From assembly GCF_000411255.1 (NCBI RefSeq), contig NZ_KE150412.1:425609-489608 (forward strand): a DNA stretch of 64,000 bases, read 5' to 3'. This stretch comes from Paenibacillus sp. HGH0039 (GTDB lineage: Bacteria > Bacillota > Bacilli > Paenibacillales > NBRC-103111). The notes under the pieces were generated by a model. That model saw nothing but the letters and a program-made list of their open reading frames with translations. It made no database searches and was not told the origin of the DNA. Positions 2,021 to 53,675 of this stretch are shown here, piece after piece. How positions within the stretch are numbered: position 1 is the first letter of the stretch; each line of letters starts with the position of its first letter. The translations under genes were made by a program, and so were the position numbers.

Positions 2021-2046
2021 CGCTCTCTCCCGCCCCAAAAATTATT

Positions 2047-16567: not shown

Positions 16568-20302
<3,735 letters not shown>

Positions 20303-20697
20303 GAACGTTTCACGCCTCCATTCCCTCATTTATTTGCTGAAGTCAATATCACCTTATGTTTGTAGTTAACTTGCAAGAGCATCGCTCACCTGCGCCGTGC
20401 AGGAAGAAGACTCCGAGACGCTGAAGACGTCCGGCTCCTCATCTCTTCGGACAAGTGCATACAAAGTGGACAGAGACTTCAACGGTGATTTTTTTGCCGT
20501 CCGGCATCATCAGGGTCTGATCTCTCCTGTTTCACTCCTTTCTCCCGATCCGTTTATGCCGCAAAAAGGCACACTTTGTATTGTAGCGCGGCCATCTCGA
20601 CAAAATCTAAACAACGGGAGCGGCACAAAAAAACCGGCCTGTATAAACAGCCCGGTTTCCTGATAAGCGGCTTGCCGAAAAAAGGACAGCTTCCTGT
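20303..20697. other. intergenic region upstream of the surface protein
   Basis: It separates two minus-strand genes and contains the terminator of the upstream one. The part next to 20302 (about 20330-20370) is AT-rich and should hold the promoter of the surface protein. Small open frames here lack ribosome-binding sites and coding character. I see nothing else. Confidence 0.4.
20627..20658 (-). terminator. terminator of the BTAD response-regulator gene
   Basis: On the minus strand AAACCGG...CTGT, a short loop, ACAG.CCGGTTT form a stem ending in a run of T. It lies 40 bases after the stop at 20698. Confidence 0.8.
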
Positions 20698-37779: not shown

Positions 37780-38820
37780 TTAAAAGCTTGGCGCCCCGGG
37801 CGCGGGTGTCCGGTAAGTTTCGGACTGCGTCTGCGGATACGGCTGCCGTGAATAAGGCTGCGCGTACATCTGATTGTACGCTGTGTTGTATGCCGTGTTG
37901 TATGCCTGGTTCTGTGTCTGGTTCTGTGTCTGGTTGTACGCCTGGTTGTGTGTCTGCGTCGTATATGCCTGCGCGTTCGGCAGGGCATAGGGCCGGCCAT
38001 ACGAATTCGCCGCAGAAACGGGATTTGCGTAGAACGGCGAAGAATATGGGGCGGGATATCCGGAAGCAGGGTACCCGGCGCTTGAGATGCTCCCGTATGG
38101 AGCCGCCGGACCGCGATAGCCGATCGGAGCATTCTCGGGCGGATACGGCTGGGCGGGAGCGGCCCCGTAAGAAGCGGTCGGGTAACCCGGCGGAAGAATC
38201 GAGCCTACGTTAGCGGCAGCTCCGCTCCCCCGAATTTCACCGTTCGGTTCGCCGGAATCTCTGACTGTCTGCGGCTTTTTGCGGCAGTTGTCCAGCGGTC
38301 CGATCGCAACCGTTTTCGTGATGGGGGCGATCGCTTCTTTCCATTTTTCTTCATCCAGACAATAGGTTTCAGCCATTACACGGGCGGGGGTCAGCCTCAG
38401 AATATCCGAGCCCAGAATCACTTCAGGCGTAGGCGCATCGAATATCGCGATAAGATGGGTATCGTCTTCGGACGCCTCCTCATAATGCCACCACCCTTGC
38501 GGCACATTGGCCACCTGCCCCGTTTTAATGGGAATATGATAGAGCTTATTGGTAAAGGGATTGATAAACGAAACCGTAGCGGCACCCGAGACGCAGTAAA
38601 CGAGTTCTGTCGCGTTTTGATGATAATGCGGCTCCACATAGTGCCCCTTGCTTAAATAAATGTCGAGCAGAGAGGCGCTGCCCAGCGTATTGAGCTGCTT
38701 ATAGCCGAGCAGATTGATGTAATTGCGGCTGTTCGTTTTGAACACGGTGTTCTTCGGCAAATCATAAAAAAACTGGAGATCCGGTGAAGTGTAATCCATA
38801 TAGGAAATCGCCAAATTCAT
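37780..38820 (-). CDS. cupin-domain protein with Tyr/Gln/Asn/Pro-rich tail
   Basis: A 346-residue protein. Residues 1-165 are a cupin: motif 1 PHYHQNATELVYCVSG has the His-His-Glu metal ligands, and motif 2 includes PQGWWHYEE. From about 200 the sequence is low complexity, rich in Tyr, Pro, Ala, Gln and Asn, with repeats such as QNQTQNQTQNQ and AYNTAYNTAYNQ. There is no signal peptide. Such tails are common in spore coat or exosporium proteins, so a spore-layer role is likely but inferred. AAGGAGAAG precedes the ATG. A sigma-E-like promoter candidate lies upstream. Confidence 0.83.
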   Translation of the reverse strand: MNLAISYMDYTSPDLQFFYDLPKNTVFKTNSRNYINLLGYKQLNTLGSASLLDIYLSKGHYVEPHYHQNATELVYCVSGAATVSFINPFTNKLYHIPIKTGQVANVPQGWWHYEEASEDDTHLIAIFDAPTPEVILGSDILRLTPARVMAETYCLDEEKWKEAIAPITKTVAIGPLDNCRKKPQTVRDSGEPNGEIRGSGAAANVGSILPPGYPTASYGAAPAQPYPPENAPIGYRGPAAPYGSISSAGYPASGYPAPYSSPFYANPVSAANSYGRPYALPNAQAYTTQTHNQAYNQTQNQTQNQAYNTAYNTAYNQMYAQPYSRQPYPQTQSETYRTPAPGAPSF

Positions 38821-39082: not shown

Positions 39083-41470
39083 TCACTCGCTGCCCGGTTC
39101 CATCAGCTCCAGCCCTGTCTTGCCGGAAAGGCGGACTGTTCTTGCACAGGTTTCCCCGGAATCGATTCCCCGTGCCGCTACTTCGACAACGCCCTCCGAG
39201 CGCCGTTTAAGATCTACCGCCTGGCCGGCCCGGTAAACGTGGACAAAATCAGCGGACGCTCCCTTATGGCTGTGCACAATCGCGGTCAGAAGCCTGCTGG
39301 GATCGACGGAATCTCCCGGAGTCTGTACGGCAAGCAGCTCATCGCCCGGCATAACAAGCGCTGTGTGGTACACGGATTCGCCGCCCAGCTCATACCGCAT
39401 CTGCACGGCAGCCGGAGCCGTCGGGTCCTGGTCCCGCTTGCCGGTTAACGGGTACCTCCCGCCGGATGCCCCTGTGAGCGGTTCATCCTTCAGGCTTTCC
39501 GCAAGCTGGACGGGATTCACTTCCGCGCTCCCTTCACAAGTTCCGGCTGCGGTCGGATACCCCTTGCCCGGCCGTTCTCCGGGTTCCTCCGAAACAGGCA
39601 ACGGTTCCGCAGCCGGATGCATCCACCACTCTACGGATCGCAGCCCGCCGTCATCCATGGTTACCCGGAACCAGTCCAGCAGCCAGCCGTCCGTCAGCAG
39701 AAGATGCCGGTCCAGAGTGCAGCCGGGATACGCTTCGGTCGATTGAAACCACGCGTAGAGAGCCTCCTCCGTTTCCTCGAATCGCCTGCACTGCCCCGTG
39801 TGGGGCGCCTGTGACAGGCCATCCAGTGTAACGGTGTTGTGGCTCCGCGTTTCGGAGTACCACGCTTGGCGCAGGGCGGACCCGTAAGGCACCACCCCGA
39901 AGTCCGGCGTCAGCGTCCCGGCGGGGTGCATGACGGTGAGATGAAGCTTGTCGAAATGGCCGTGAGCACCGCCGTGCCCGCCGAAATCGGCGAGGAACGA
40001 GAGCGGATTCCCGGCCCTCCTGCCGGCAGCGAAGCCGGTATCCGCCCAAAGCCTCGCGCCTCTCCGGGGCTCCCCTCCTTCACCGGCGGCATCCGGCTGT
40101 ACGTCCTCGCCGTACAGCAGCGCCTCCAGCCCGCAGCGGGCACGCGGCGACGCGAGAGTCCCGCCAAGCTGGCGGTACGCCTCGCGGAGAATCGGCCGCA
40201 GGCCGCCGATCCCGTAGCGGGACAGCCCCTGCTCGGCGATCTCGGCGATCTCCCGGGCGTAAGGCCCCCGCTCCATCGGGCCGTCGTGCAGGGCCGGGAG
40301 CACGCCCCGGTCGTCGGCCAGATCCGCCATGGCCTCGAACATCCCGCGCATCGACTGGCCGTTCCCGCCTTCGCAGGCGTACAGGTCGATGCCGAACCTC
40401 TCCGCCATCCGGGCGGAGATGAGATAGGCGCGCAGCACGAACACGTGATAGTACGTGCTGCCTTCAAACTCAAGTCCATCCGCGTTGACTCCGATGGACA
40501 AATGGTGCTTGAAGCCCCCTTCGCCTTCGATCAGCGCCTCCAGCGCGTCCTTCCGGCCTTGGGCCGCATAGACGCAGGAAAGGGAGGCGTTCAGCCAGGC
40601 GGTATAGTTGTTCTCGGCATTTTGCCGCTCGTGGATCAGAATATGACGATACTCCGTCATACTCTCCTCCAAGAGTCCCATGAAGATGCCGAGCGCAGCC
40701 GTCTCCTCCTCGCCGAACGATACGCCTTCGTCTCGCAGCAGAAGGTACGCGCCGAGCAGCGTCGTCGACCAGATGGCTTCGGTCAGCGCCTGGTGGAAGG
40801 CTCTGCCCTTCAGCATCCAGCCCTGCGCGCCCGCGTGCACGGGATAGAACGGGAACTGCTCCGCGTACGCGATAAGCAGTTCCTTGCCGAGCTGCGCACA
40901 GGACTCGTCGCCAAGGGACGCATGCACGGCAGCCGCTTCAAGGGCTGCCCGGGCCAGCGACTGGTGCTTGAACACCAGCCAGGCGCCCCGGTATTCTTCG
41001 CCTTCCAGCACGCATCCGTACGGACAGCGGAATGACGAGGCCTCCGCTTCGGCCGGGTCGAACAGCAGCTCCGTATGATGGACCGGGCACACATACTGGT
41101 GCCACCAGCCGCCGGGTTCCCGCGGAATCGCCAGGCTGCCTGCGGCATTCAGCCGGAGAAGCTCCTCACGGATGGCTTCCGCCGTCTCTCTCGCCCACGG
41201 AAAACGGGCCGCCTTGTCCCGGAGGCTTGCCTGTGACCGGGACAGCGGTCCCGAAGCCTCGGCCGGGCGGCCCCCTCCGCTCGGCTCGTTCTGCGGCATG
41301 ACTCCTCGGGGTGCGTTCCGGAGCTGCGGCCCCTTCTTGCCATAGCGCTGAATTGCGGGTTTGTCCGGCCCCTGCTGTCCGAATACGTTCTCAAGCCCCT
41401 GCCGGGATTCACCGCCATCGTGCAGTCTCATACGCTCCCGATCTCGCTCCCGCTCCCGTTCTCTTGTCAT
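39083..41470 (-). CDS. heparinase II/III-family polysaccharide lyase, cytoplasmic
   Basis: A 795-residue protein with the (alpha/alpha) toroid plus beta-sandwich plan of heparinase II/III lyases (PL12, PL15, PL17, PL21 group). Landmarks are NAENNYTAWLNASL, FEGSTYYHVFVLRAYL, and the heparinase core FGGHGGAHGHFDKLHLTV with YSETRSHNTVTLDG. No signal peptide is seen, so it probably cleaves imported oligosaccharides inside the cell. The N-terminus begins with an odd Arg-Glu run (MTRERERERDRER), and a Met at codon 14 is an alternative start. The start overlaps the upstream stop by four bases (ATGA), showing coupling with the dehydrogenase gene. Confidence 0.88.
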   Translation of the reverse strand: MTRERERERDRERMRLHDGGESRQGLENVFGQQGPDKPAIQRYGKKGPQLRNAPRGVMPQNEPSGGGRPAEASGPLSRSQASLRDKAARFPWARETAEAIREELLRLNAAGSLAIPREPGGWWHQYVCPVHHTELLFDPAEAEASSFRCPYGCVLEGEEYRGAWLVFKHQSLARAALEAAAVHASLGDESCAQLGKELLIAYAEQFPFYPVHAGAQGWMLKGRAFHQALTEAIWSTTLLGAYLLLRDEGVSFGEEETAALGIFMGLLEESMTEYRHILIHERQNAENNYTAWLNASLSCVYAAQGRKDALEALIEGEGGFKHHLSIGVNADGLEFEGSTYYHVFVLRAYLISARMAERFGIDLYACEGGNGQSMRGMFEAMADLADDRGVLPALHDGPMERGPYAREIAEIAEQGLSRYGIGGLRPILREAYRQLGGTLASPRARCGLEALLYGEDVQPDAAGEGGEPRRGARLWADTGFAAGRRAGNPLSFLADFGGHGGAHGHFDKLHLTVMHPAGTLTPDFGVVPYGSALRQAWYSETRSHNTVTLDGLSQAPHTGQCRRFEETEEALYAWFQSTEAYPGCTLDRHLLLTDGWLLDWFRVTMDDGGLRSVEWWMHPAAEPLPVSEEPGERPGKGYPTAAGTCEGSAEVNPVQLAESLKDEPLTGASGGRYPLTGKRDQDPTAPAAVQMRYELGGESVYHTALVMPGDELLAVQTPGDSVDPSRLLTAIVHSHKGASADFVHVYRAGQAVDLKRRSEGVVEVAARGIDSGETCARTVRLSGKTGLELMEPGSE

Positions 41471-42234
41471 CTCATCATCATCCCGCCGTTAACCTCGATT
41501 GTCTCTCCTGTCAGGTAAGATGCCAGATCGGAAGCGAGGTATAGCACCGCTCCGGCGACATCCTCAGGCGTCCCCTCGCGCTGAAGCGGAATGCCGTTAA
41601 TCGTGGCCTGACGGGCGGTATCCGTCGTAAACGTGGCGTGGAACATCGTGTTCCCGATAAACCCGGGAGACACATTGTTGACCGTGATGCCGCTTCCGGC
41701 GGCTTCTTTGGCCAGCCCTTTGGCGTAAGCCATCACGGCGCCTTTGCTGGCCGCGTAAATGCTGGAGCCCGGCCCGCCCCCGTTATGGGCCGCGACGGAG
41801 GTCATATTGACGATGCGCCCGGAGCCTTTGGCGGCCATACCCGGCAGCACTCTTTTGCACATAAAAACCGTGCTCTTGAAGTTGACGTCCATGATCCGCG
41901 TATACATGTCTTCGGTCATTTCCGCGTTCGGAACACGCTGCACCAGATGTCCGGCATTGTTGACCAAAATATCGACGGTGCCGCCGAAGGCCGCTTCCAC
42001 CTCGCTTACCAGACGGTCGATTTGCGCGATATCGGTCACATCGGCTTGGACCAGAACGGCTTCGCCGCCTGCTGCGCGGATCGTCTCCACGACTTCTTCT
42101 CCCTGGGCCGTATTGCTCAGGCAGTTAATGCCGACTTTCGCTCCGTGAGCGGCGAGAGCGACCGCGACGGCGCGCCCTATTCCCGCATTGGAACCCGTTA
42201 CAAGTGCAATTTTTCCCGTTAAATCGATAGCCAT
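41467..42234 (-). CDS. short-chain dehydrogenase/reductase, FabG-like
   Basis: A 255-residue NAD(P)-dependent Rossmann oxidoreductase. It has the cofactor motif TGSNAGIG (about 14), NNAG (about 91), catalytic Ser in NMTSVAAH and YAASK (about 160). The sequence is FabG-like, but it sits between a heparinase-type lyase and an SGNH hydrolase within a polysaccharide locus. A role in reducing or oxidising an unsaturated-uronate product (like DEH reductase or KduD) is therefore more likely than fatty-acid synthesis. This is inference from context. Confidence 0.88.
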   Translation of the reverse strand: MAIDLTGKIALVTGSNAGIGRAVAVALAAHGAKVGINCLSNTAQGEEVVETIRAAGGEAVLVQADVTDIAQIDRLVSEVEAAFGGTVDILVNNAGHLVQRVPNAEMTEDMYTRIMDVNFKSTVFMCKRVLPGMAAKGSGRIVNMTSVAAHNGGGPGSSIYAASKGAVMAYAKGLAKEAAGSGITVNNVSPGFIGNTMFHATFTTDTARQATINGIPLQREGTPEDVAGAVLYLASDLASYLTGETIEVNGGMMMR

Positions 42235-42235
42235 T

Positions 42236-43291
42236 TCAAATTCCCCCAGTTTCTCGGATAGATGTGCGCAGCTCGGTTAAAACCGGCTCAAGCAGTCGCG
42301 CCAAATTTTCCCCCATGCGGATATGCCCGTAATCGGAGGGATGGATAAGGTCGGTCGTCAGAGAAACAAAATCGGTCATGATTTCGCTTCCCTCCAGCAA
42401 ATGAAGCCGAGGATGATTCCGGTCCGAAACGTATCGTCTGAGCCTGTCATTGAAAATCAGGTCGCGTTTCGTAAACACATGCTCCTCATCCCGAAAAAAA
42501 GTCGCCCGGTTCGGATAGATCGTCGTGACGAAAACAGGCTTGTGCGGGTTGCGCCCCGTCACCTCATCGAGCAAGTAGGTGATCCGGCGTTCGAATTCCG
42601 GCGGGTCCATGACACTGCGCATATTGACGCCCAGCTCCAGAAATGCGGCATCCCAGCCGCTTCCGCGCGCCAAATGGTCGGCGGCTTCCTTCTCGCAGTA
42701 GCAGGTTCCGCTCAGCCCCAGATTAAGGGCATCGATTCCCAGCCTTCTGGCGGCCTGCTGCACGTAACTGTCGGTGTGGCTGAGCGAGCCCGCGCCCTGT
42801 GTGATGGAAGATCCGTAGGCGAGCAGAGTCAGCTGCGGCATCTCCGCTTTATGCGGCGGCCGAACCTCGTAACCGAAAGCGTCGACGTCATAAAAAACTG
42901 CCGTAAAGCGGTCGCAGTAAACGCGCCACACATCGGATGAGAACGCCCCGCTCTGCAGGGCGGACCTGTGCACCTCGGCAAACCTTTCCGGCTCCTCCAG
43001 CTGCAGAGTGACGGCCGTCCCGGCTTTCAAATCGTAAGCGCAGTGGAAAAAATCGCCCCGGAACACATAGACGCGGCCGTCCTTTTCCCGGGCTCCGAGC
43101 GTGATCCGCACATAGGGCGCTTCCGTCACAAAGCGGATTTCGCATCCGCTGGACTCCGCCGCTTTTGTGCGCCCTTTGGCCGACAGCGCCTCCCGGACTT
43201 CCCGGGGAAACCTCTGGAGGAGAAGACCCGGCAATCCCGGCCTCTGCTCCAGCTCCGAAACACTATGAAAATACACTCCGTTATGCAGCAT
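42236..43291 (-). CDS. SGNH/GDSL hydrolase with N-terminal beta domain
   Basis: A 351-residue hydrolase. The first 145 residues look like a beta-rich module. The SGNH domain follows with block I YGSSITQGAG (Ser nucleophile), block II Gly in NLGLSGTC, block III Asn in LELGVNM, and block V DLIHPSDYGH (Asp and His). No signal peptide is visible. In this operon it may remove acetyl groups from imported oligosaccharides, consistent with O-acetylated polysaccharides, but that is inferred. One base separates its stop from the next start. Confidence 0.88.
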   Translation of the reverse strand: MLHNGVYFHSVSELEQRPGLPGLLLQRFPREVREALSAKGRTKAAESSGCEIRFVTEAPYVRITLGAREKDGRVYVFRGDFFHCAYDLKAGTAVTLQLEEPERFAEVHRSALQSGAFSSDVWRVYCDRFTAVFYDVDAFGYEVRPPHKAEMPQLTLLAYGSSITQGAGSLSHTDSYVQQAARRLGIDALNLGLSGTCYCEKEAADHLARGSGWDAAFLELGVNMRSVMDPPEFERRITYLLDEVTGRNPHKPVFVTTIYPNRATFFRDEEHVFTKRDLIFNDRLRRYVSDRNHPRLHLLEGSEIMTDFVSLTTDLIHPSDYGHIRMGENLARLLEPVLTELRTSIRETGGI

Positions 43292-43331
43292 GCTTACGCC
43301 TTTCCCCGCCCATCCGGCAGCGGATAAGATG

Positions 43332-43356
43332 GCCCGGGTTGTTTGGACTCCCGGGC
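43332..43356. other. GC-rich hairpin between the hydrolase and lyase genes
   Basis: GCCCGGG and CCCGGGC flank an 11-base loop. On the plus strand T-rich sequence follows, but no plus-strand gene ends here; on the minus strand there is no T run. It may stabilise or process the operon mRNA between the secreted lyase and the downstream genes. Confidence 0.4.
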
Positions 43357-43402
43357 TTTTGATATCTTTTTTGAACGGAATTCCGATAAGTTCTGTGCTT
43401 AG

Positions 43403-46400
43403 TTACGGATTAATCGTCGTGATAAGCAGGACGGGAGCCTTAGCCGGATCCGTTCCTTCGAGGGAAGCGATTCTGGCCTCCCGGTCGTTTTCATTCATGC
43501 CGAGCCGGAAGCTGAGAACGCCGTCCTGAGCGGCTTGCGGGTTTTTATAAAACTCCGTGACATCGAAAACCACGTAACTGCCGTCCGCCAGAGGGCTCTT
43601 GGAGCCGAGCGGAATATCGGAATAAGTGCGCGCGGGCTGATCGTTGGCCGTTACCGCCGCCGGATTCCAGTCGTCATTCAGAATGCCGGTCAGTTGGAGG
43701 TCCGAACCGGACTGGGCCGAGGTGACGAACAGCTTCAACTCGACCGAATCGACCGGCTGCGCGAGCGCCGGGAGGGTTACTTTAACGTAACCGTTTCTGC
43801 GGCTGGCCGATTTCCGCTTAATCTGCATCTCGGTCTCCGTGCTGAAATTTGTTCCCGCCTTGTCGGACAGAATATTGTCCACATAGGTGTCTCCCCCGAT
43901 TGCAAACGGATTCGTGGAAGAAGGACGCACCGTGTACACAACCGACGGGGCTGTTTTGCCCCCGTAAGCTGCGCTTACCGAAGAAGTGCCCAGACTTGCC
44001 GGAGTCAGCCTGCCTTCGGTCGAGACGGCCAGCACGCCCGGATGGCTGCTTGTGAATACCGCGCCGGAAGGCACGGGCTCAGTAGACCCGTCGGAATAAT
44101 GCGCGACCACGACTAGCTGTTTCGGCACTCCGCCGAGAGCGAGCTGGGCCGGTACGCCCGTGAGGCTGATTCCCGTAAAAGCGGGCGTTGTCACACTAAC
44201 GGTGTTACTGGCTGTCGTATGCCCCGCTCTGTCCAGCGCTTCGATCTTGAACGTGTAAGCCGCACCCGGCTGCAGAGAACCCGCCTCGTACGACAAGACA
44301 TCTCCGAATACGGTGTCGATAAGAGCGCCGCTGCGGTAAATGCGGTAGCCCGTAATTCCCGTGTCGTCCGATGCGGCGGCCCATTTCAGCTTCACCGTAC
44401 GGGGTGTCACGCCGTCCGTCGCCAGCGGATTCGGAGACGGCCAGGCGGGCGCTGCGGCGTCCGTCCTGCCGTCGGCTACATACTCATCCGCTCCGACATC
44501 GGGTATACCCGACCGGGCTTCTCTCTCCATGTCTTCCGTTACGAAAGACAACGGACCGCCGCTCGCGTAATTGCCTTTGGAAGCGTTGATGGCCGGACTG
44601 TCCGCAGCGAGCTTCTTATAGGAGATATGGCGCAGCGGTTCATATTCGCTCGATGCCCACAACCACGGGTAGTCTTGAGGTCCGAGCTCCAGGGTGGCGT
44701 TTTGCATGCTCGGGTAGACGACTTTGACCTCGTCTTCCGTCAGCGGCGCGGAATTTCCGGTCACGAGCGGCACGCCTTTCTGCGGGAACATAAGGTTGCC
44801 CGACCACGTTAACCCCGGAATCGGCGTCATGATACGGATCAGCTCATCCCGGGAACCGACGACGATATTGTTGGCGAAGGTGAGATTTTTCGGCGCCGTT
44901 CCGTAGCGGACCATACCAAGCTCGAACCCGCTTTTGTTGTTCACCAGCGTATTGTTGGCGATCACGATGTTTTTGGCGATATAGTGATTGTTCGTCGGAT
45001 CGATGGGACTCGTCATGTTGTCGTTGTCGCCGGTCGTGAACGCAAGCGTAGCGTCCCAGTTCGTGCCGGTCAGACCTTCGAAATAATTGTTGTACACGTT
45101 GTGGTTCTCGCCGTAGACACGGACTCCGCCGGTGCCGAGCGGAGCATCGTCGGGATCGGGACTCAGCACCTGACGGCCTTTGCCGATGAACATGTTGCCG
45201 TACACGCTGGAGCCGCTGCCCGTTCGCAGCGTTACGCTTCCGAGCGACTCGACGAAATAGTTGTAGCGGATGGTGTTCGCCCCGCTCTTCACCGAAACGA
45301 TTTCCGTGTCCGAATCGCAGTGATCGAACAGGTTGTACTGGATCGTCGCATGGGCATCCAGACTGGATAAAACCGATACCCCGATGCGGATCGGCTCCGA
45401 TTCGTTGGACTGCCGCTCCAGCGTGTTGCGGAAAACGTTGTACTCGACCGTATCGTACTGGGTAATTTCGTACGGGATCGTGGAGCCTTCCGGACGGCTG
45501 GAGACACCGTCGAACAGAATGAACTTCCCTCTGTCGCGTTTGTTTTCCATCAAATTGTGATCGATGCGGTTATGGTGGCTGTTCGTTCCTTTGATATAAA
45601 TCCAGTTGGATTTGTCCGCAGCCGTCGTGGTGCTTTGGGAACGGAAGGCATTATTCGTAATCCGGATGTTGTTGGAGCCGTTCAGGTTAATCCACTTGTC
45701 CTGCGGATTCATCCGGAATTCCATATCCTGAATCGTGATATAGGAGCTGGTTTCAACCGTTATGCCCGTAGAAGGGAAAACGGCTTTGCCCTTGTGCTGC
45801 GCTTTTACGACAATCGGATTCTGGGCGGTTCCGTTCTTGCTGCGGACCGTAAATCCCGTGTAACTGCCGTCCGCCAGCTCGATCACTTCTCCGGGCACCG
45901 CCGCGTTGAGGCGGGTCAGCAGCTCCGCCGTCGTCGTGACGGGCGGCTTTGCGGACGCCTGCGGCACGGCGCTCACGGGCGCGCTTGCGCCGCTCTCGCC
46001 CGAGGCGTTCACGGCGCTGACCGTGAAGTAGTACGTCTGCCCCGGCGTCAAACCGGCGGCGGTGTACTCCGTCGCCGTGACCGGTGACGCGTTGAGCGGC
46101 GTGAAAGGTCCGCCGGCGTTCGCGGACATGCTCACGTTATAGCCGGAGGCGGATGGTACGGCCGTCCACGCCAGTTTGACGGCTCCCGCCCCCCAAGGGG
46201 ACGCGGACACGCCCGCCGGAGCGGACGGAACACCCGGCTGTCCGGGTCCGCCGCCCGTGTAGGCCGCCGCCTGAATGTCGTCGAAGGCGGTGGTGCCCGA
46301 CTGGCTGTAGAGGCCGACCCCGCCCGCCGTCAGCGGAGAAGCGTCGGTGCCCGACAGGACAAGCGTGCCGCCGTAGTAGCCGTCCAGCTTAAGGCTGCCG

Positions 46401-47122
46401 TCTCCCTGGTGAATCACGTCCAGCTTCAGCGGCAGGTAGCCCTGGCTGTCGAAGGAAGGATTCAGCACGGTATTCGGAACCGATACGCCGCTGGCGTTAG
46501 GACTTCCGGGCGACTGCGGGACAGCCGTTTTGGAAGTCCCCGTCACCCTCTCCAGATAAAACTGATAGCTGACCGAATTTTTCTTGGTCATAAACCGGTA
46601 ATAGGTCGGCTTCGTACCGCTGACCGAATATTTGGCGGCCAGTCCCGCGTAAGTGCTGTTGGCGCCGGTTACCTTCACCCGGCCGGACAACGTTAGACTG
46701 CCGTCCGTAAGGACGGGATTATCCGTTCCCCAATAGCCGTTGGCGATCAGATAGGCCGTGCCGCTGGTCGGATCCGTCTGCTGCAGGAAATGATTGGCCT
46801 CCGCGGACCCTGTGGCGGGCTCCTCGCCTACGCTCCAGCCGGCGCTTCCGCCTAGGACCGCTTTCCACGGTTGTGCGGCCGTAGGGCTGGCGCCTACCGG
46901 AGATGTGTATCCCGTCTGGGAAGAACCGTAGCTCTCGAAAGGTTCAAGCCACGGGCCGGTCAAGCCGGCGGCCGGGGCCGGATCGGTTAATTCCGCAGGC
47001 CCGCCTGTTTCGGTAGCGCTTACAGTTGTGACGAAAGCTAAGGAAAGGCATAGAGAGAGAACCAGCTGCAAACTTAGAAAGACACGGACACGCGTTCTAA
47101 AACCCGGCATGCTCTTAATCAT
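43403..47122 (-). CDS. secreted PL6-type polysaccharide lyase with FN3 and C-terminal modules
   Basis: A 1239-residue exported enzyme. Parts in order: signal peptide (to about 37, VSA); a beta-rich module (about 60-285); a fibronectin type III domain; a parallel beta-helix of the chondroitinase B/alginate lyase (PL6) type (about 390-790, with repeats like NIRITNNAF and TVEYNVFRN and the segment KRDRGKFILFDG); another FN3 (about 830-920); a Big2-like module; and a C-terminal carbohydrate-binding-type module (DTYVDNIL). AGAGG supports the ATG at 47122. It should make unsaturated uronate oligosaccharides from alginate or dermatan sulfate outside the cell. Confidence 0.87.
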   Translation of the reverse strand: MIKSMPGFRTRVRVFLSLQLVLSLCLSLAFVTTVSATETGGPAELTDPAPAAGLTGPWLEPFESYGSSQTGYTSPVGASPTAAQPWKAVLGGSAGWSVGEEPATGSAEANHFLQQTDPTSGTAYLIANGYWGTDNPVLTDGSLTLSGRVKVTGANSTYAGLAAKYSVSGTKPTYYRFMTKKNSVSYQFYLERVTGTSKTAVPQSPGSPNASGVSVPNTVLNPSFDSQGYLPLKLDVIHQGDGSLKLDGYYGGTLVLSGTDASPLTAGGVGLYSQSGTTAFDDIQAAAYTGGGPGQPGVPSAPAGVSASPWGAGAVKLAWTAVPSASGYNVSMSANAGGPFTPLNASPVTATEYTAAGLTPGQTYYFTVSAVNASGESGASAPVSAVPQASAKPPVTTTAELLTRLNAAVPGEVIELADGSYTGFTVRSKNGTAQNPIVVKAQHKGKAVFPSTGITVETSSYITIQDMEFRMNPQDKWINLNGSNNIRITNNAFRSQSTTTAADKSNWIYIKGTNSHHNRIDHNLMENKRDRGKFILFDGVSSRPEGSTIPYEITQYDTVEYNVFRNTLERQSNESEPIRIGVSVLSSLDAHATIQYNLFDHCDSDTEIVSVKSGANTIRYNYFVESLGSVTLRTGSGSSVYGNMFIGKGRQVLSPDPDDAPLGTGGVRVYGENHNVYNNYFEGLTGTNWDATLAFTTGDNDNMTSPIDPTNNHYIAKNIVIANNTLVNNKSGFELGMVRYGTAPKNLTFANNIVVGSRDELIRIMTPIPGLTWSGNLMFPQKGVPLVTGNSAPLTEDEVKVVYPSMQNATLELGPQDYPWLWASSEYEPLRHISYKKLAADSPAINASKGNYASGGPLSFVTEDMEREARSGIPDVGADEYVADGRTDAAAPAWPSPNPLATDGVTPRTVKLKWAAASDDTGITGYRIYRSGALIDTVFGDVLSYEAGSLQPGAAYTFKIEALDRAGHTTASNTVSVTTPAFTGISLTGVPAQLALGGVPKQLVVVAHYSDGSTEPVPSGAVFTSSHPGVLAVSTEGRLTPASLGTSSVSAAYGGKTAPSVVYTVRPSSTNPFAIGGDTYVDNILSDKAGTNFSTETEMQIKRKSASRRNGYVKVTLPALAQPVDSVELKLFVTSAQSGSDLQLTGILNDDWNPAAVTANDQPARTYSDIPLGSKSPLADGSYVVFDVTEFYKNPQAAQDGVLSFRLGMNENDREARIASLEGTDPAKAPVLLITTINP

Positions 47123-47240
47123 CCATCCACCATCCTCTCGGTTTCGATTCATGCCTATTATAAGTTCCGCCGGACCGCAAACCCATGACGCCTTTTAATC
47201 TGCATTGTGTTTTTTTAATTTCCGCCGCCTCCGGGAAAAT

Positions 47241-47270
47241 AAAAAAACGCCTGCTCTAAACGAGCAGGCC
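47241..47270 (-). terminator. terminator of the YesN-YesM regulator genes
   Basis: Perfect stem GCCTGCTC / GAGCAGGC with a five-base loop, followed on the minus strand by seven T. It sits 28 bases after the stop at 47298. Confidence 0.92.
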
Positions 47271-47297
47271 CTGCTTACTGTAGCATCTGGTTCAAGT

Positions 47298-49106
47298 TCA
47301 GGAGCCGATGTTCGGAAACCGGATGGAAATCGAGGTGCCTTGGCCCTGGGCGCTGCTTATGGACAGGCCGTACTTTTCTCCGAATACGAGCTGAATGCGG
47401 CGGTGCACGTTCATCAGCCCGATTCCTCCGTGCCCTTTACGGCCGGCGAGCGTGGAATCCGCAAGCTGGTTGGACTCCAGCTGGCGCTGCAGGGAAGCCA
47501 GCTTCTCCGGAGGAATGCCTACCCCGTTGTCCTCGATCGCGATTACGAGATCTCTGTCCTCCTTGTCCGTCCAGGCGTCCAGCCGGATATAGTGGTAATC
47601 CTCGATACCGTCCGCGAACGCGTGCTGAAACACATTCTCGATAAGCGGCTGGAGCGTGAGCCGGGCCGTTTTTTTCAGGAAAAATTCGGGCGTAATCCGC
47701 ACATCCAGCTCGAAATCCCGCCCTACCCGGTGCTTCATGATCGTCATATAGTTCAGCACATGCTTAAGCTCGTTGACGATGGCGGTTTCTTCAATATGCG
47801 TCTGCACCGAGTAACGGAACATGGCGGCGATCGCGTCCACAATTTCCGTGATCTCTTCCGACTGCCGGATTACCGCGTAACAGATAATATTTTCCAGCGT
47901 ATTGTACAGAAAATGCGGATTGATCTGGAGCTGAAGAGACTGAAGCTCGGCTTTCTGCCGCTCCAGCTCCGCGTCTTTCTTGTCCAGCTCCGTTTTGTAC
48001 AAGGTATCCATCAGTTCGGACAAGCTTGCGACCATCAAATTGTAGCGGTCGATGAGTTCGCTGAATTCATTGCGCGTGCGCAGTTGGGGAATCTTCATCC
48101 AGTTTCCCTGCTCGGTCTGCCGCATGCCTCTTTTGAGGATATGGATCGGTTTCGTGATGACCCGGCCGAACCGGTACGAAATGAGCAGCGCGATAAGCAG
48201 CGTGATGCCTCCGACCAGAAACGATAAATACCGGATGCTGGCGATAGGCCTGTTGATGTCTTCGGTCGGGATCGACACCATGAGATTCCATCCCGAATAC
48301 GAGGACTTCCGGCTGACGATCATGCGCTCTTCTCCGAACGATGCGTCCGTGAACGAAGTCAGCTGCATGTTTTCGAGCTTGGCCAGCAGTTCGCTGTCTA
48401 TCACCTGGCCGATTCGGGTTTTGTCCGGATGATGCACAATCCTTCCTTCATGATCCACAATAGAGAAAAAACCGCCCGGTCCGAGATTGACTCCCTTCCA
48501 CAACGTGGAAAATTCATCCGATTTGATTTGGATCGTCAAAATGCCTTTGAATTCGTTAAACACCTGGCCGTGTATTTTACGCGAGAGCGTAATCAACTGG
48601 GTATCGCTTTCCGTAAACACGCTGTTATTGATGATCGTCAGGTTGCCGTTGGAATCGGTTTCCTTGTCCAGCTCCTCCAGAGTCGCTCCTGGAACGGGAT
48701 CCTGGATAATTTTCAGGGCCGGGTTTACGAAGTACACCCAGTTTTTGCTGTAATCCGTCAAATAGACGGTCATAATTTCCGGTGTTTTCAGAAAAAGCGG
48801 ATCAATGACCTGCTTCTTGAGCGTATCCGTATATTGAAAATACGCGTAATCGTCCTTCGGCGGAGAGTCGAGAAATTTTCTTATATCCGGGTGGGTAAAA
48901 AGAGAAAGATGGGCGCGCTCGTACAGCTTCAAATACAGATCCGTATGGTTGACCGCGTTGGATACCGCCTCGATCAGATGCTGTTCGTTTTGCTGCCGCA
49001 GCTGACTGGAAGAAATATGGTAGGAAAACCACCCGATCGACGCCGCCGTGATGATCACGACAACCGCGATGTAAATAAAAATCGTCCGGGACAACGTCTT
49101 TTTCAT
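47298..49106 (-). CDS. YesM-type sensor histidine kinase of the polysaccharide locus
   Basis: A 602-residue membrane kinase. Parts in order: a membrane helix (about 8-28), an extracytoplasmic dCache-like sensor (about 35-275), a second helix (about 280-300), HAMP, a His_kinase domain with His398 (QINPHFLYN) and a C-terminal HATPase (IENVFQHAF, EDNGVGIP). Its start codon directly follows the regulator stop (TAAATG), so the two are co-translated. It probably senses the oligosaccharide released by the secreted lyase. Confidence 0.93.
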   Translation of the reverse strand: MKKTLSRTIFIYIAVVVIITAASIGWFSYHISSSQLRQQNEQHLIEAVSNAVNHTDLYLKLYERAHLSLFTHPDIRKFLDSPPKDDYAYFQYTDTLKKQVIDPLFLKTPEIMTVYLTDYSKNWVYFVNPALKIIQDPVPGATLEELDKETDSNGNLTIINNSVFTESDTQLITLSRKIHGQVFNEFKGILTIQIKSDEFSTLWKGVNLGPGGFFSIVDHEGRIVHHPDKTRIGQVIDSELLAKLENMQLTSFTDASFGEERMIVSRKSSYSGWNLMVSIPTEDINRPIASIRYLSFLVGGITLLIALLISYRFGRVITKPIHILKRGMRQTEQGNWMKIPQLRTRNEFSELIDRYNLMVASLSELMDTLYKTELDKKDAELERQKAELQSLQLQINPHFLYNTLENIICYAVIRQSEEITEIVDAIAAMFRYSVQTHIEETAIVNELKHVLNYMTIMKHRVGRDFELDVRITPEFFLKKTARLTLQPLIENVFQHAFADGIEDYHYIRLDAWTDKEDRDLVIAIEDNGVGIPPEKLASLQRQLESNQLADSTLAGRKGHGGIGLMNVHRRIQLVFGEKYGLSISSAQGQGTSISIRFPNIGS

Positions 49107-50117
49107 TTATTTGATGCCCAGCTGCTGCCGGTATTCAAGCGGAGAAACGCCGGTCACTTTTTTAAACATCCGGGAAAAGTGCGGGTAATTCTCGTAACCG
49201 ACCTCGTACGCGATATCGTTAGTGCGGTAACGCGGGATTTCCAGCAGCTTTTTGGCCAGCTCGATCCGTTTGAGAATCCGGTACTGAACGAACGTCTCTT
49301 TGTGCACTTTTTTGAACAGAAAGCTTAAATACTGCGGGGTGATACCCAAATAATCGGCCGTATCTTCCAGCGACAGCTCCTTCGTGATATGAGCGTCCAT
49401 ATAGTCTTTGGCTTTCAGCATCAGATCTTGTCCCCCTCTTTGCAGCGCGAGCTCGTCGATGATTTTCAGAATGCTGACGTGAAGCTGCTCGAAATAATGA
49501 AGGTGATCGCCCGAATCCGGAATTTCCCCGACAATCGGGTGAAACCCTTTGAGGGCAAGCCTTTTCTTCAGCATCGGAAGACAATCCTTCAACAGCTGGA
49601 CAAAATCGTAATCCGTCCGGGAAGCCGTCAGGCAGTAAGTCTTGAGCTGCTCGAAATACGCCTCCATTTCCTCGATCCGCATCGACCACACCGAATCCGC
49701 CAGGTTCCCGATGAGATCCTCGTACTTGGAAATGGACAGGGCCGGGTTCCCCCGTGAAATGAGCCGGCCCAGCAGATCACCGATTTTAGCGGGTGTAAAC
49801 GGTTTCAAAATGTATTCTTTTACCCCGTACGAAATACAGTTCTGCGCATACTCGAAATCCCCGTACCCGGAAATGATCACCTTCTGCACGAGAGGGTATT
49901 GGTCGTGCACCTGTCTGCACAGCTCCAATCCGTCCATTTTGGGCATGCGGATGTCCGTTAAAAGAAGCTGCGGCAGCGATTCCTTCATCCGTTCAAGCGC
50001 CTCCTGGCCGTTGCCGGCCGTCCTCACCCACTCGAAATCATACGGCAGCCGCCCCAGCATGGCGACCAGCCCCTGACGGATCAGCGGTTCATCGTCGACC
50101 ACCAAAATTCGCTTCAT
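49107..50117 (-). CDS. YesN-type response regulator of the polysaccharide locus
   Basis: A 336-residue regulator with an N-terminal receiver (Asp55 in LLTDIRMPKM, Lys in EYILKPFTP) and a C-terminal AraC double helix-turn-helix ending VSPLEYRQQLG. It is much shorter in the middle region than the regulator at 3983. AAGGAGGG precedes the ATG at 50117; an in-frame start 18 codons earlier has no site. It likely controls the transporter genes just upstream and the lyase genes downstream. Confidence 0.93.
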   Translation of the reverse strand: MKRILVVDDEPLIRQGLVAMLGRLPYDFEWVRTAGNGQEALERMKESLPQLLLTDIRMPKMDGLELCRQVHDQYPLVQKVIISGYGDFEYAQNCISYGVKEYILKPFTPAKIGDLLGRLISRGNPALSISKYEDLIGNLADSVWSMRIEEMEAYFEQLKTYCLTASRTDYDFVQLLKDCLPMLKKRLALKGFHPIVGEIPDSGDHLHYFEQLHVSILKIIDELALQRGGQDLMLKAKDYMDAHITKELSLEDTADYLGITPQYLSFLFKKVHKETFVQYRILKRIELAKKLLEIPRYRTNDIAYEVGYENYPHFSRMFKKVTGVSPLEYRQQLGIK

Positions 50118-50162
50118 GCCGTTCCCTCCTTCGTATACGGATCTGATGTTGTTGTGGAAGGC

Positions 50163-50202
50163 AAAAAACACATTTACCCGCCCCGGAGAGCGGATAAATG
50201 TT
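50163..50202 (-). terminator. terminator between the importer and regulator genes
   Basis: Stem ACATTTACCCGC / GCGGATAAATGT with one mismatch that is a G-U pair in the minus-strand RNA, followed by TTTTTT. It separates the importer genes (50210-53675) from the two-component genes, allowing different expression levels. Confidence 0.85.
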
Positions 50203-50209
50203 TAAACCG

Positions 50210-51769
50210 TTAGTTCGAATCGCCGAGCTTGACGCCTTCTTTTTTGTTGTACCGCTCGGTTGCTTCCTTGATGATATCATTTCCGCCTTTGGCTTTCCAT
50301 TCCTCCAGCACCTTCGGCCAATCGGAGATCGGTTCTTTGCCGTACACCATTTTGAGCATATGGTCGAGGATGACCGGCGGCATATCGGAGAACTTCAGCC
50401 CGGCATCGGTGAATTTGGCGCTGGACGTAAGCTCCGGCGCGAACGAAATACCGTCCCGGCCTTCTTTGGCCACGATCGTGTCGAATTGTTGGATCAGCTT
50501 CTTCCCGTCTTCCGTCTGGCTCAGCAGCGTACGGTTAAGAGCCGTATCTTCGACCAGGCGCAGAATGACCGAGCGGAACTGCTCCTCGTACGTTTCTTCC
50601 GGCGTTTTAGGCTGCTTGTAAACCACTTTGCCGTCCTGCGTCTGATACGTGTCTCCTTCGATCCCGAAGTTGAAGAACTTGTCGCCCTGCTCGGTCACCA
50701 TGAAATTGAGCATTTTGACGATGGCGGCCGCTTTTTCCTTGCTCACCTTGCTGTTGATATACGACAAGCCGCCGGTGTAGCTGTATTTCATCATGCCGCC
50801 CTTGCCGTCGTCTCCTACCGGTGACGGAATGATGACGACTTCGGATTTCGGATTCGTGACCTTCGTCGTGTTGATCCACGTCATGAGCAGGTTGGCGTTA
50901 TGATTCCAGATGCCTGACTTGCCCGCATTGATGTTGTTCGTCCATTTGTTGCCGTCCACGCTGGCGAAATCTTTCGTCATCAGCCCTTCGTCGTACATCG
51001 TTTTGTAAACCTGGAGGGCCTTCTGCATTTGTTCCACCTTGAAAAATTTCGGTACGACTTCGTCGCCGATTTTCTCGAACATCGTGCTGTAAGGCATCAC
51101 ATCGTAGGCGCCGAAAATAAAATCGGAGTAGACGAAATTTTGCCGGAAAGCGAACGGCTGCTCGACCCCGTTCTTTTTCATGGCCCGCAGCACATTCAGA
51201 AACTCGTCGATCGTCTTCGGAGCCGGCAGCCCCGTCGCGTCCAGAAGATCCTTACGGATAAAAGTGGCTCTGCGTGTCGGTACCGACAAGTATTCCGGAA
51301 TGGCGTAGATTTTACCTTTGTATTTAACTTCCTCCCACGCTTCTTTTGGAATCGCTTTCAATAAATCCTGGCCGTATTCTTTCAAAAGATCATCAAGGGG
51401 CATGAACAGCCCGCCTTTTATCGCGCCAAGCATATCCGGCCCTTCCGGGAACATCCCCTGGATCGTATTCATGACGTCGGGGAGGTCGTTGCTGGCGAAC
51501 ATGAGAGCCGTCTTGGGCTTGAATTCGGCATGCGGCACCAGTTTGATATCCAGCTGTACGCCGGTCATCTCGCCGAGCTTTTTCACCCATTTGTCGTTGT
51601 TAATATCGGTGCTGGCGAGCGCATATTTGTTCAAGGAATCGCTCAGCGACAAGGATACTTTCACCGGTCCGGGCGGTTCCTTCGGACTCGCCCCTTGGCC
51701 CGAGCAGGCCGTCAGAGCCAAAGATGCGGTCAACGTGAGGAACAGCGCGCTTTTTTTCCATCTTTTCAT
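50210..51769 (-). CDS. extracellular binding lipoprotein of the polysaccharide-locus importer
   Basis: A 519-residue family 1 substrate-binding lipoprotein. The signal peptide ends in the lipobox LTAC (about residue 20). Its C-terminal half has WPKVLEEWKAKGGNDIIKEATERYNKK, as in LplA/YtcQ-type proteins. The ATG at about 51769 begins the signal peptide; an in-frame start 14 codons earlier would mask it. It is third in the importer operon after two permeases. The ligand is probably an oligo-uronide, judged from the lyases nearby. Confidence 0.92.
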   Translation of the reverse strand: MKRWKKSALFLTLTASLALTACSGQGASPKEPPGPVKVSLSLSDSLNKYALASTDINNDKWVKKLGEMTGVQLDIKLVPHAEFKPKTALMFASNDLPDVMNTIQGMFPEGPDMLGAIKGGLFMPLDDLLKEYGQDLLKAIPKEAWEEVKYKGKIYAIPEYLSVPTRRATFIRKDLLDATGLPAPKTIDEFLNVLRAMKKNGVEQPFAFRQNFVYSDFIFGAYDVMPYSTMFEKIGDEVVPKFFKVEQMQKALQVYKTMYDEGLMTKDFASVDGNKWTNNINAGKSGIWNHNANLLMTWINTTKVTNPKSEVVIIPSPVGDDGKGGMMKYSYTGGLSYINSKVSKEKAAAIVKMLNFMVTEQGDKFFNFGIEGDTYQTQDGKVVYKQPKTPEETYEEQFRSVILRLVEDTALNRTLLSQTEDGKKLIQQFDTIVAKEGRDGISFAPELTSSAKFTDAGLKFSDMPPVILDHMLKMVYGKEPISDWPKVLEEWKAKGGNDIIKEATERYNKKEGVKLGDSN

Positions 51770-51830
51770 GTGGACATCCCCCTTAAGGTGCGTGTGTCTA
51801 ACCTGATTCATAACATCTTGAATCCTGGGA

Positions 51831-52697
51831 TTAAGACTTGATCGATCCGATCAGCATGCCTTTAATAAAATGCTTCTGCAGGAACGGGTAGACAAGCATG
51901 ATCGGGATCGTCGCAATGACGATAACCGCCATTTTGAGGCCTTCCGGTGACAAGTTGGCTATGTCGCCCGCCGTATTGGCAAGGTCCGAGGAATCCGTGA
52001 CGACGTATTCCCTCAGCTTCACCTGGAGCGGGAACAAGGCCCGTTCGTTTATATAATAAAGCGCGTTGGAATAGTTGTTCCAGAGGGCTACGGAATAAAT
52101 GATGCTCATCGTGGCCATCGCCGGCTTCGAAAGCGGCAGAATCATCGTCCACAGGATGCGCAGCTCCCCCGCCCCGTCTATCCGCGCCGACTCGATCAGT
52201 TCGTTCGGGATCGACTGGAAGAAAGAGCGCATCACGAACAGGTTAAACGCGCTGATCGCGCCCGGGAGCATCAGAGCCCACAGGCTGTCGAGCATTCCCA
52301 GCGAGCGGATGAGCAGGTAGTTGGGAATCAGCGGCGCGTGGAAGATCATCGTGATCAGCACGAGCACGAGAATCCCTTTGCGTTCCCTGTATTCGGACCG
52401 GGACAGCGGATAAGCCAGGCTGGCCGTCATCACCAGGGCGATCAAGGTTCCGGCGACCGTAACGAGGGCGCTGATGCCGAACGCCCTCCAGATCGCCGAC
52501 TGCTGGAGCACGGTGGTATAGTTCGACAGCGTCCAGTCGGAGGGCCACAGCAGTACGCTGCCGCTGCTGAGCGCTCCGGCCCCGCTGAACGATTTGGCGA
52601 CGATATTCAGGATCGGCAAAATCATGGCAAGCGAAATCAGCAGCAGGATCACGGGATTCAGCAGCGCCGTCTTGCTTTGTTTTTCCAAGGGAGACAA
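51831..52697 (-). CDS. carbohydrate ABC permease, LplC/AraQ-like
   Basis: A 288-residue permease with about six membrane helices, the EAA-loop variant IESARIDGAGELRI (about 170) and the typical tail YPFLQKHFIKGMLIGSIKS. It pairs with the permease at 52713, whose stop lies 15 bases upstream. The equivalent gene at 182-1054 has the same order and spacing, so the two importers are parallel systems. The ATPase would be supplied in trans. Confidence 0.93.
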   Translation of the reverse strand: MSPLEKQSKTALLNPVILLLISLAMILPILNIVAKSFSGAGALSSGSVLLWPSDWTLSNYTTVLQQSAIWRAFGISALVTVAGTLIALVMTASLAYPLSRSEYRERKGILVLVLITMIFHAPLIPNYLLIRSLGMLDSLWALMLPGAISAFNLFVMRSFFQSIPNELIESARIDGAGELRILWTMILPLSKPAMATMSIIYSVALWNNYSNALYYINERALFPLQVKLREYVVTDSSDLANTAGDIANLSPEGLKMAVIVIATIPIMLVYPFLQKHFIKGMLIGSIKS

Positions 52698-52712
52698 GCT
52701 GGTTCCTCCTTC

Positions 52713-53675
52713 CTAGTATAATCCTTCTCCGGTAGTTTTTTTGCTGAATTTATTCGCCGATACGATTAGCACGAAACCGATTAAGGACTTGAACAGGCCG
52801 ATTGCCGTCGTGTAGCTGTATTCTCTCTGGATCAGGCCCACTCTGTAGATGTACGTGTCGAGAATGTCGCCGCTTCCGTTCGTTAAGGGATTGAGGAAAA
52901 CGAAAACCCTTTCAAAACCGAGATCCAGAAAATTCCCGATCTGCAGCAAAAACAGAATCGTAATCGTCGGCATGATCGAAGGAATCGTAATCGAGAACGT
53001 CTGCTTCCACCGGCTCGCCCCGTCCATCTGCGCGGCTTCGTACAAATCGGGATTGATGCCGCTCATGGCCGCGAGGTAAATGATCGTGCTCCACCCGGCG
53101 TCTCGCCAGATACCGGAGCTTACGATAATGGAGCGGATGTACGAATCCTCCCCCATAAAGTACACCGGTTCCCGGCCGAAGAGGCCCAGGATGTAATTGA
53201 TGGCGCCGCTTGTCGGGGACAGAAGCTCGATCACAATTCCGCCTACGACGACCCAGGAAAGGAAGTGCGGCAGATAAACCGACGTCTGGACAAAGCGTTT
53301 GTAAGCCGCATTGCGCAGCTCGTTCATCATCAGCGCCAGAATAATCGGAATCGGGAAGCCGAACAGCAGCGTGTAAAACCCGATGGAGAGCGTATTTCCC
53401 AGAATGTGCCAGAAATCCGCGTACTCGATCATCCGCCTGAAATTGTCGAGTCCGATCCAATCGCTCTGCCAGATTCCCGCGAAGATGTTGTAATCCTGAA
53501 ACGCCATCACAGATCCCGTCAGCGGGATGTATTTGAAGATCAGGAAATACGCGATACCCGGGAGTGACAAGAGGTATAACACTTTGAACCGGCTGTAATA
53601 GGCGAAAAAACCGGCCTTCTTCCTCGTACGATGTCTTTTCGATTCGGCTCCGAGACCGGCCCCGCTGTAGCTCAC
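52713..53675 (-). CDS. carbohydrate ABC permease, LplB-like
   Basis: A 320-residue permease with six membrane helices and the EAA-loop motif YEAAQMDGASRWKQTF. It starts at a GTG (53675) preceded by AAGGGTG; a nearby ATG is in another frame. It is the first gene of the importer operon, so the main promoter of the polysaccharide locus should lie in 53676-53880, next to the divergent helix-hairpin-helix gene. The basic N-terminus (KRHRTRKKAG) is cytoplasmic. Confidence 0.92.
   Translation of the reverse strand: MSYSGAGLGAESKRHRTRKKAGFFAYYSRFKVLYLLSLPGIAYFLIFKYIPLTGSVMAFQDYNIFAGIWQSDWIGLDNFRRMIEYADFWHILGNTLSIGFYTLLFGFPIPIILALMMNELRNAAYKRFVQTSVYLPHFLSWVVVGGIVIELLSPTSGAINYILGLFGREPVYFMGEDSYIRSIIVSSGIWRDAGWSTIIYLAAMSGINPDLYEAAQMDGASRWKQTFSITIPSIMPTITILFLLQIGNFLDLGFERVFVFLNPLTNGSGDILDTYIYRVGLIQREYSYTTAIGLFKSLIGFVLIVSANKFSKKTTGEGLY

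Follow-up and report, generated by a model that had tools for sequence, protein, structure and literature searches.

A probable alginate-utilization operon of Paenibacillus sp. HGH0039 with a PL6 lyase, an SGNH esterase and an unusual heparinase-type lyase

The closest described counterpart of the locus analyzed here, a row of nine genes in a 64,000-nucleotide stretch of the Paenibacillus sp. HGH0039 genome (the window; positions 425609–489608 of contig C1, with C2 denoting another contig of the same genome), is cluster II of Bacillus weihaiensis Alg07 (Bw800–807), which encodes two permeases, a binding protein, YesN, a kinase, a reductase for 4-deoxy-L-erythro-5-hexoseulose uronate (DEH), an enzyme of polysaccharide lyase (PL) family 15 and a pectin-degradation protein (PMC5128808; this and the other papers are cited from excerpts). 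That cluster is induced on kelp, the excerpt giving no value for YesN; activities of its short-chain dehydrogenase/reductase (SDR) and its PL15 enzyme were measured, the alginate lyase is secreted, and the 2-keto-3-deoxygluconate (KDG) kinase and 2-keto-3-deoxy-6-phosphogluconate (KDPG) aldolase are encoded in a separate cluster (PMC5128808). The window genes follow the same permease–permease–binding protein–YesN–kinase–SDR–oligolyase order, likewise with a secreted lyase and with the KDG-path kinase and aldolase encoded elsewhere, but they differ in having PL6 and SGNH genes between the sensor kinase and the SDR, and in having a heparinase II/III-type protein (here called HEP) in the place of PL15, whose gene in this genome lies at C2:1873858–1876149. 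A 2021 review states that the alginate pathway of the Firmicutes still needs genetic study (PMC8286568), and our search of the open-access literature found no paper on a Paenibacillus alginate operon, the matches being to other organisms or reviews.

We interpret the nine genes (Table 1) as a Paenibacillaceae alginate-utilization operon, to which we give a probability of about 0.84. In its gene families and linkage it is the known Gram-positive layout in variant form, with PL6 and SGNH inside the operon, PL15 outside it, and an unusual lyase in HEP; the activities assigned to the products are predictions. In the proposed pathway the secreted PL6 lyase, with its CBM96, would cut alginate outside the cell, and the lipoprotein and two permeases would carry the unsaturated oligomers into the cell, driven by an ATPase whose gene lies elsewhere. 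Detection of the oligomers and activation of the operon would fall to YesM and YesN, as the induction of the B. weihaiensis cluster suggests by analogy; the cytoplasmic SGNH protein would remove O-acetyl groups, which is the least certain step. HEP and the PL15 enzyme of the other contig would then split the oligomers, as fold and linkage suggest, into monomers that open to DEH; the SDR, whose relatives are linked to PL15, a kinase and an aldolase, would reduce DEH to KDG; and a PfkB-family kinase and a KDPG aldolase from C2 would complete the path. An earlier note on this DNA had described nine consecutive same-strand genes directed at a uronate polymer; the open reading frames (ORFs) and Pfam matches confirm nine minus-strand ORFs at 39083–53675, and the uronate target is borne out by the PL6 family, by the nearness of the HEP fold to PL17, and by linkage to PL15 and PL7.

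The PL6 protein contains a PL6 domain at about residues 405–790, two FN3 domains and a C-terminal CBM96. The nearest solved relatives of the PL6 domain are PL6 alginate lyases: the poly(beta-D-mannuronate) lyase 7o77 scored 121.5 bits and AlyGC (5gkd) 112.6, compared with 50.2 for chondroitinase B. The catalytic Lys of AlyGC, numbered as we take it to be, and its R241 align with K622 and R643 of the window protein. The likeness to these enzymes lies in the beta-helix domain and in this Lys/Arg pair; it differs in that only about 390 of the 1,249 residues align, the window protein having FN3 and CBM96 domains in addition. Family match, nearest structures and the Lys/Arg pair all agree with the secreted PL6-type lyase proposed earlier, its secretion being called by eye, as were all signal peptides and lipoboxes reported here.

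Loci related to that of the window were gathered by HEP, giving 80 named loci, nearly all from Paenibacillus, that are the best 80 of 100 relatives; in 79 of them the frame caller found HEP itself. The core string of permeases, binding protein, YesN, YesM, SDR and HEP recurs across dozens of named contigs, and the gene order is therefore not due to chance. The string with both PL6 and SGNH is seen at seven of the 80 loci, where the permeases lie mostly beyond the 10-kb flank. P. chitinolyticus NBRC 15660 (L034) has a PL6–SGNH–SDR–HEP row like that of the window, with a HEP of 86% identity. A second heparinase-type gene, belonging to one protein cluster, is present in 60 of the 80 loci and stands directly after HEP in 54 of 79; the one member of the cluster that was compared (L067) matches the PL15 oligoalginate lyase Atu3025 (3a0o) end to end with 887 bits. 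A relative of Atu3025 also occurs once elsewhere in the genome of the window, whereas the window has none and HEP itself is not PL15. Among 98 genomes, PL15 (E-values up to 1e-100) was found in 35 of 36 that are HEP-positive and in 7 of 62 that are HEP-negative (30 of 31 and 2 of 28 within the family); the HEP-positive set was picked by hand, using a segment of at least 49% identity, because paralogs of 30% identity reach lower E-values than one fragment at a contig edge. Within the genus of the window, HEP, PL15 and PL6 occur together in three genomes and are all absent from two. PL15 is present in 14 of 398 genomes drawn from the class, that of the window included.

One locus (L151) joins alginate lyases of another family to the string, in a single row of PL7, two 332-residue proteins, PL7, permeases, YesN, YesM, SDR, HEP and PL15; at the place of the binding protein the caller kept an antisense frame. 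The two 332-residue proteins (L151 2960–3958 and 4151–5149) have similar signal-like N-termini, the first has a Pfam beta-helix match, and both are possible further lyases. A HEP–PL15 operon is also present in P. alginolyticus (L058) and P. chondroitinus (L041), both of which have been linked to the degradation of alginate (PMC5522943). In many of the PL15-type loci (L036–L049 and others), PL15 is followed in the same direction by a second binding protein and permease pair, which often has a YesM/YesN of its own. Frames in the relatives are simple calls, sometimes antisense ones that hide genes, as with the binding protein of L151, the SDR of L035 and the HEP of L084. Alignments were made of 20 of the 30 loci L004–L033 (L004 being the window), of the window with 43 of 77 HEP frames, with 15 of 16 SGNH frames, and with 17 of 63 SDR frames. 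Present in many Paenibacillus genomes, this locus family offers a defined operon in which the Firmicutes alginate pathway can be tested.

HEP is closest to the PL17 oligo-alginate lyases. Its profile scored 99.6–77.9 bits with PL17 structures, 26.8 with PL39 and 25.6 with heparinase III; with PL15 (3a0o) it scored only 21.5 bits, on which an assignment to PL15 was rejected. The AlphaFold2 model (predicted local distance difference test 85.5, predicted template-modeling score 0.89) was compared with solved structures by VIA-align, and ranks 1–8 were taken by eight PL17 entries (Z 30.4–31.9, 586–590 residues aligned, root-mean-square deviation 3.3–3.9), followed by a PL40 ulvan lyase (Z 28.8), PL12 (27.8), PL39 (26.2) and PL15 (24.5). 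With the PL17 enzymes AlyA3 (7bjt), Alg17C (4nei) and BoPL17 (8bdd), HEP shares the fold over its whole length (Z 30–32), the Asn and the catalytic-acid Tyr; it differs in being only 16–20% identical, in having Asn-Tyr for Asn-His, in a CPxH...CPxGC motif, and in having no signal peptide by eye.

The PL17 catalytic-acid Tyr, at which 7bjt and 7bm6 differ through a mutation in the latter, aligns with Y341 of the HEP sequence STYYH, and G..YYH is kept in 76 of 77 orthologs. The PL17 Asn corresponds to N288, and the adjoining His is a Tyr (Y289) in all 77 orthologs, 66 of which read NNY and 11 SNY; around the catalytic-base Tyr of PL17 the alignment to HEP is gapped, with an invariant Y529 nearby. 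The NCBIfam model olalg_lyase scores 28.6 bits on HEP, below its cut-off of 1400. The Asn-His pair is described as a neutralizing pair conserved in PL17 (PMC12336832), and the His as conserved in alginate lyases of PL5, 15, 17, 38 and 39 (PMC12088678). HEP is not filed as PL17, because an invariant Asn-Tyr replaces Asn-His; it may nonetheless work like an oligo-alginate lyase despite the missing His, since the excerpted table of PL12 heparinase III residues lists only Tyr, His and Asn (PMC12088678). The earlier proposal of a PL15- or PL17-type lyase thus stands as to PL17 being nearest by profile and by fold, and falls as to the PL17 Asn-His pair and, by score, as to PL15; a grouping with non-uronate enzymes, which the earlier note had named as evidence that would tell against a uronate pathway, is not seen, PL17 being nearest.

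The conserved N-terminal C-P-x-H ... C-P-x-G-C stretch of HEP lies outside the part that can be aligned by sequence with PL17, and is possibly a metal ribbon. The first 80 or so residues, starting MTRERERERDRER, are shared within the genus and absent from the aligned orthologs of other genera, the conserved part beginning near residue 82; this extension may be functional or may be an artifact of the start site. Relatives also contain a family of heparinase-type paralogs that are about 30% identical (L142–L150), among which we found no characterized member; the five printed in full (L142, L143, L145, L147 and L148) have, by eye, a C...CxxC stretch, and Asn-Trp in place of the Asn-Tyr of HEP.

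The SDR cannot be called a DEH reductase from its sequence alone. In a profile search the uncharacterized dehydrogenase 4yqy ranked first (238.5 bits), followed by FabGs (about 210) and the A1 DEH reductase (201.8), and in a single-sequence search the known DEH reductase 3afm scored 170.8, compared with up to 167.2 for reductases named as FabG-type. Identification as FabG was rejected, the score being below the NCBIfam equivalog cut-off (212.9 against 297.75), as was identification as KduD (TIGR01832, 179.3 against 338.85). The only one of 25 NCBIfam models listed that the SDR passes is NF005559, a broad 'glucose 1-dehydrogenase' subfamily (222.3 against a cut-off of 215). The SDR gene immediately precedes HEP in 70 of 79 loci, and SDRs that are 56–63% identical adjoin PL15 in four loci of other families, immediately upstream in three of them and with only a kinase and an aldolase intervening in the fourth. 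One such locus from another family of the same class (L170) reads YesN, YesM, SDR (59% identical), PfkB kinase, KDPG aldolase, PL15 and cupin, and its SDR likewise passes NF005559 (249.8). Because this row joins the SDR to kinase, aldolase and PL15, the SDR of the window sits where a DEH reductase belongs. The possibility that it would group with true FabG, raised earlier as a sign against the pathway, is not borne out, given the score below the FabG cut-off, the PL15-linked relatives, and a separate FabG in this genome, where another gene passes the equivalog model at 364.2.

Later steps of the pathway would be encoded on C2, where a PfkB kinase (C2:458949–459836) adjoins a KDPG aldolase (C2:460025–460615). 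The aldolase passes two NCBIfam subfamily cut-offs; for the kinase, the KDG kinase model is nearest but below cut-off (187 against 400), and the protein is 48% identical to the L170 kinase beside the SDR. None of the kinase and aldolase matches of this genome falls within the window, in agreement with the earlier note. The PL15 gene on C2 stands in a second uronate locus (L137 9852–19648, C2:1873852–1883648), which perhaps targets a fucose-bearing glycan. After PL15 come genes for a GH29 fucosidase, for a protein with weak GH43 likeness and for another importer, which has 65, 60 and 51% identity to the window's. About 260 bases downstream of HEP in the window is a cupin gene (37780–38820, minus strand) with a Cupin_1 match and a long, repetitive tail rich in Q, N, Y and P, in contrast to the small cupins that adjoin PL15 in L168 and L170; as a candidate for KdgF it was set aside on the Cupin_1 match and the tail, the rest of the genome not having been searched for KdgF.

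The role of the SGNH protein is the most debatable part of the pathway. It has the Ser, Gly, Asn and Asp-x-x-His motifs of SGNH/GDSL enzymes, GSSIT (from residue 160) and GVN (from 221) being kept in 15 of 16 locus copies, all except that of L098, and HPSD (from 317) in all 16. The folds nearest to its model are SsfX3 (Z 27.3), a Bacteroides GDSL protein (22.6; 4lhs is among the nearest) and CE2 acetylesterases (17–21). SsfX3 and the CE2 enzymes, SGNH proteins with an N-terminal beta domain, share its two-domain fold (Z 17–27) but are only 8–17% identical to it, and no close characterized relative was found among solved structures. Since bacterial alginate is often O-acetylated on mannuronate (PMC8286568), a link of the SGNH protein to O-acetylation is plausible, and we put the chance that it deacetylates imported alginate oligomers in the cytoplasm at about even; the open-access literature gave no paper on alginate acetylesterases in such loci.

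A role on some other ester, such as a lactone or a methyl or acetyl group of another sugar that enters through the same importer, is a substantial competitor, if somewhat short of an even chance. The nearest fold, SsfX3, is a salicylyl acyltransferase, solved structures include no close characterized relative, and the SGNH gene was not found in 64 of the 80 HEP loci; on the other side stand the motifs kept in 15 of the 16 copies, the CE2 acetylesterases among the nearest folds, and the acetylation of bacterial alginate (PMC8286568). The gene is upstream of HEP, or of SDR-HEP, in all 16 loci that have it, partly by construction, since the loci were fetched by HEP, and in the HEP tree it is found both in a group that branches early and, once more, in the type of the window.

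The 80 loci divide into 16 with SGNH, 60 with PL15, none with both and four with neither, these and similar counts carrying frame-calling error. One SGNH-type and one PL15-type locus coexist, on separate contigs, in at least seven species or strains (P. qinlingensis, P. plantarum, P. oryzisoli, P. allorhizosphaerae, P. cremeus, Soil766 and Soil750). The early-branching group of the HEP tree consists of the SGNH-linked copies, except that L098 sits separately on a long branch; the type of the window falls, as two subgroups that are not joined, within a set of 31 rows otherwise PL15-linked. The tree was quickly made and contains several long branches, and L055, labeled type C, is placed among type B. 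A speculative extension, which we consider doubtful, is that Paenibacillaceae have two parallel routes, PL15 for plain alginate and PL6–SGNH–HEP for O-acetylated bacterial alginate, in which the SGNH protein would be an alginate-oligosaccharide O-acetylesterase and HEP would represent a new lyase family with a PL17-like fold and Asn-Tyr for Asn-His. Should the SGNH–HEP pair turn out to process acetylated alginate, this would reveal how soil bacteria feed on Azotobacter and Pseudomonas slime, and would yield a deacetylase together with a lyase of unusual active site.

Several observations weigh against an alginate operon. The binding protein is nearer to 5gx8 (64 bits, its best remote solved relative), which we take to be a glycosaminoglycan-disaccharide binder, than to AlgQ2 (43.6 bits), a likeness that appears to be a weak clue either way. 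The SDR profile ranks 4yqy and the FabGs above the A1 DEH reductase, and its only NCBIfam pass is the broad subfamily; the PL15 gene of this genome has no adjoining SDR. Many carriers show neither a PL6 nor a PL7 endolyase, a strong PL6 (E < 1e-40, reached by 21 of 27 matching genomes) being missing from 19 of the 36 HEP-positive genomes and PL7 from 31. The GH29 and weak GH43-like genes at the PL15 locus leave room for a natural glycan other than pure alginate, and HEP is without the His of the PL17 Asn-His pair, a residue conserved across alginate-lyase families in the excerpted text (PMC12088678).

These points bear in part on a broader alternative, that the substrate is another uronate polymer, such as a plant or bacterial exopolysaccharide with mannuronate or glucuronate and acetyl or fucose decoration, which alginate merely imitates. 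The GH29 and GH43-like genes, the carriers without PL6 and PL7, the altered active site of HEP, and the names of several carriers, which suggest soil, roots and plants, would all fit such a glycan; we nevertheless consider it improbable, as PL15 matches Atu3025 from end to end, PL7 heads the operon of L151, known alginate degraders have the HEP–PL15 operon (PMC5522943), and B. weihaiensis provides a precedent (PMC5128808). Uptake of a glycosaminoglycan (dermatan/chondroitin, heparin or hyaluronan), in which the PL6 protein would be a chondroitinase B and HEP a heparinase or chondroitinase, is very unlikely in spite of the Pfam label Chondroitinas_B, the heparinase fold of HEP, the binding protein's remote closeness to 5gx8 and the lack in HEP, as in most of the excerpted GAGases (PMC12088678), of the alginate-lyase His, for chondroitinase B scores less than half as many bits as the PL6 alginate lyase, orthologous loci have PL15 and in one case PL7, and the three GH88 and seven sulfatase matches of the genome all lie outside the window, one GH88 adjoining a different heparinase at C2:625–628 kb and another near two sulfatases at C1:74–80 kb. 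Of the targets named in the earlier note, alginate is thus well supported by the PL6 scores and the PL15/PL7 linkage, and dermatan and heparin are disfavored.

Neighboring genes of the nine-gene row are separated by −4 to 38 bases, the exceptions being the gaps of 111 bases at SGNH/PL6 and of 145 bases at PL6/YesM. Because a terminator-like hairpin sits in the latter gap, the genes may form two transcription units, with importer and sensors apart from the enzyme genes; terminator-like sites in the region show no excess over chance (18, compared with a shuffle mean of 16.9). A 14-pair hairpin at 50170–50201 (minus strand), between the lipoprotein and YesN genes, is a possible attenuator or transcript-processing site.

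Table 1. Genes and a possible transcription signal of the candidate alginate-utilization operon, in window coordinates.
Feature	Coordinates	Strand	Family matches and remarks
ABC sugar permease 1 (LplB-like)	52713..53675	-	PF00528; 57–64% identity to permease 1 of PL15-type operons
ABC sugar permease 2 (YtcP-like), TTG start	51831..52697	-	PF00528; adjacency to permease 1 conserved
Solute-binding lipoprotein	50210..51811	-	No Pfam match; remote likeness to 5gx8 and AlgQ2; lipobox LTAC (by eye)
YesN-type response regulator, AraC output, GTG start as called	49107..50171	-	PF00072 (Response_reg) and PF12833 (HTH_18)
YesM-type sensor histidine kinase	47298..49106	-	PF06580 and PF02518 (His_kinase and HATPase_c); dCache and HAMP below cut-off
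Terminator-like hairpin and T run, YesM/PL6 gap	47249..47269	-	Consensus match only
Secreted PL6-family lyase, 1,249 residues	43403..47152	-	PF14592 (Chondroitinas_B), 157.8 bits (cut-off 24); CBM96; fn3; N-terminal signal by eye
SGNH esterase, candidate O-acetylesterase	42236..43291	-	PF14606/PF13472 (Lipase_GDSL); no signal peptide by eye
SDR, candidate DEH reductase	41467..42234	-	PF13561 (adh_short_C2)
HEP, cytoplasmic heparinase II/III-type protein, candidate oligo-alginate lyase	39083..41470	-	PF07940 (Hepar_II_III_C) and PF05426 (Alginate_lyase)

Another importer and sensor set appears to lie at 182–7363 of the window, where two permease-like ORFs on the minus strand and YesM-like, YesN-like and lipoprotein-like ORFs on the plus strand were recognized by eye, the last having no Pfam match. 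Near the alginate operon, a gene at 55159–57687 (minus strand) encodes an 842-residue protein, secreted by eye, that combines DUF4855, Big_9, cohesin and dockerin in one chain and has an F5/8C match just below cut-off. A lytic polysaccharide monooxygenase of AA10 type (PF03067; 59406–60455, minus strand) with FN3 and CBM5/12 is likely a chitin or cellulose enzyme, and a 1,253-residue surface protein (16568–20329, minus strand) has five Collagen_bind stretches and a SpaA domain.

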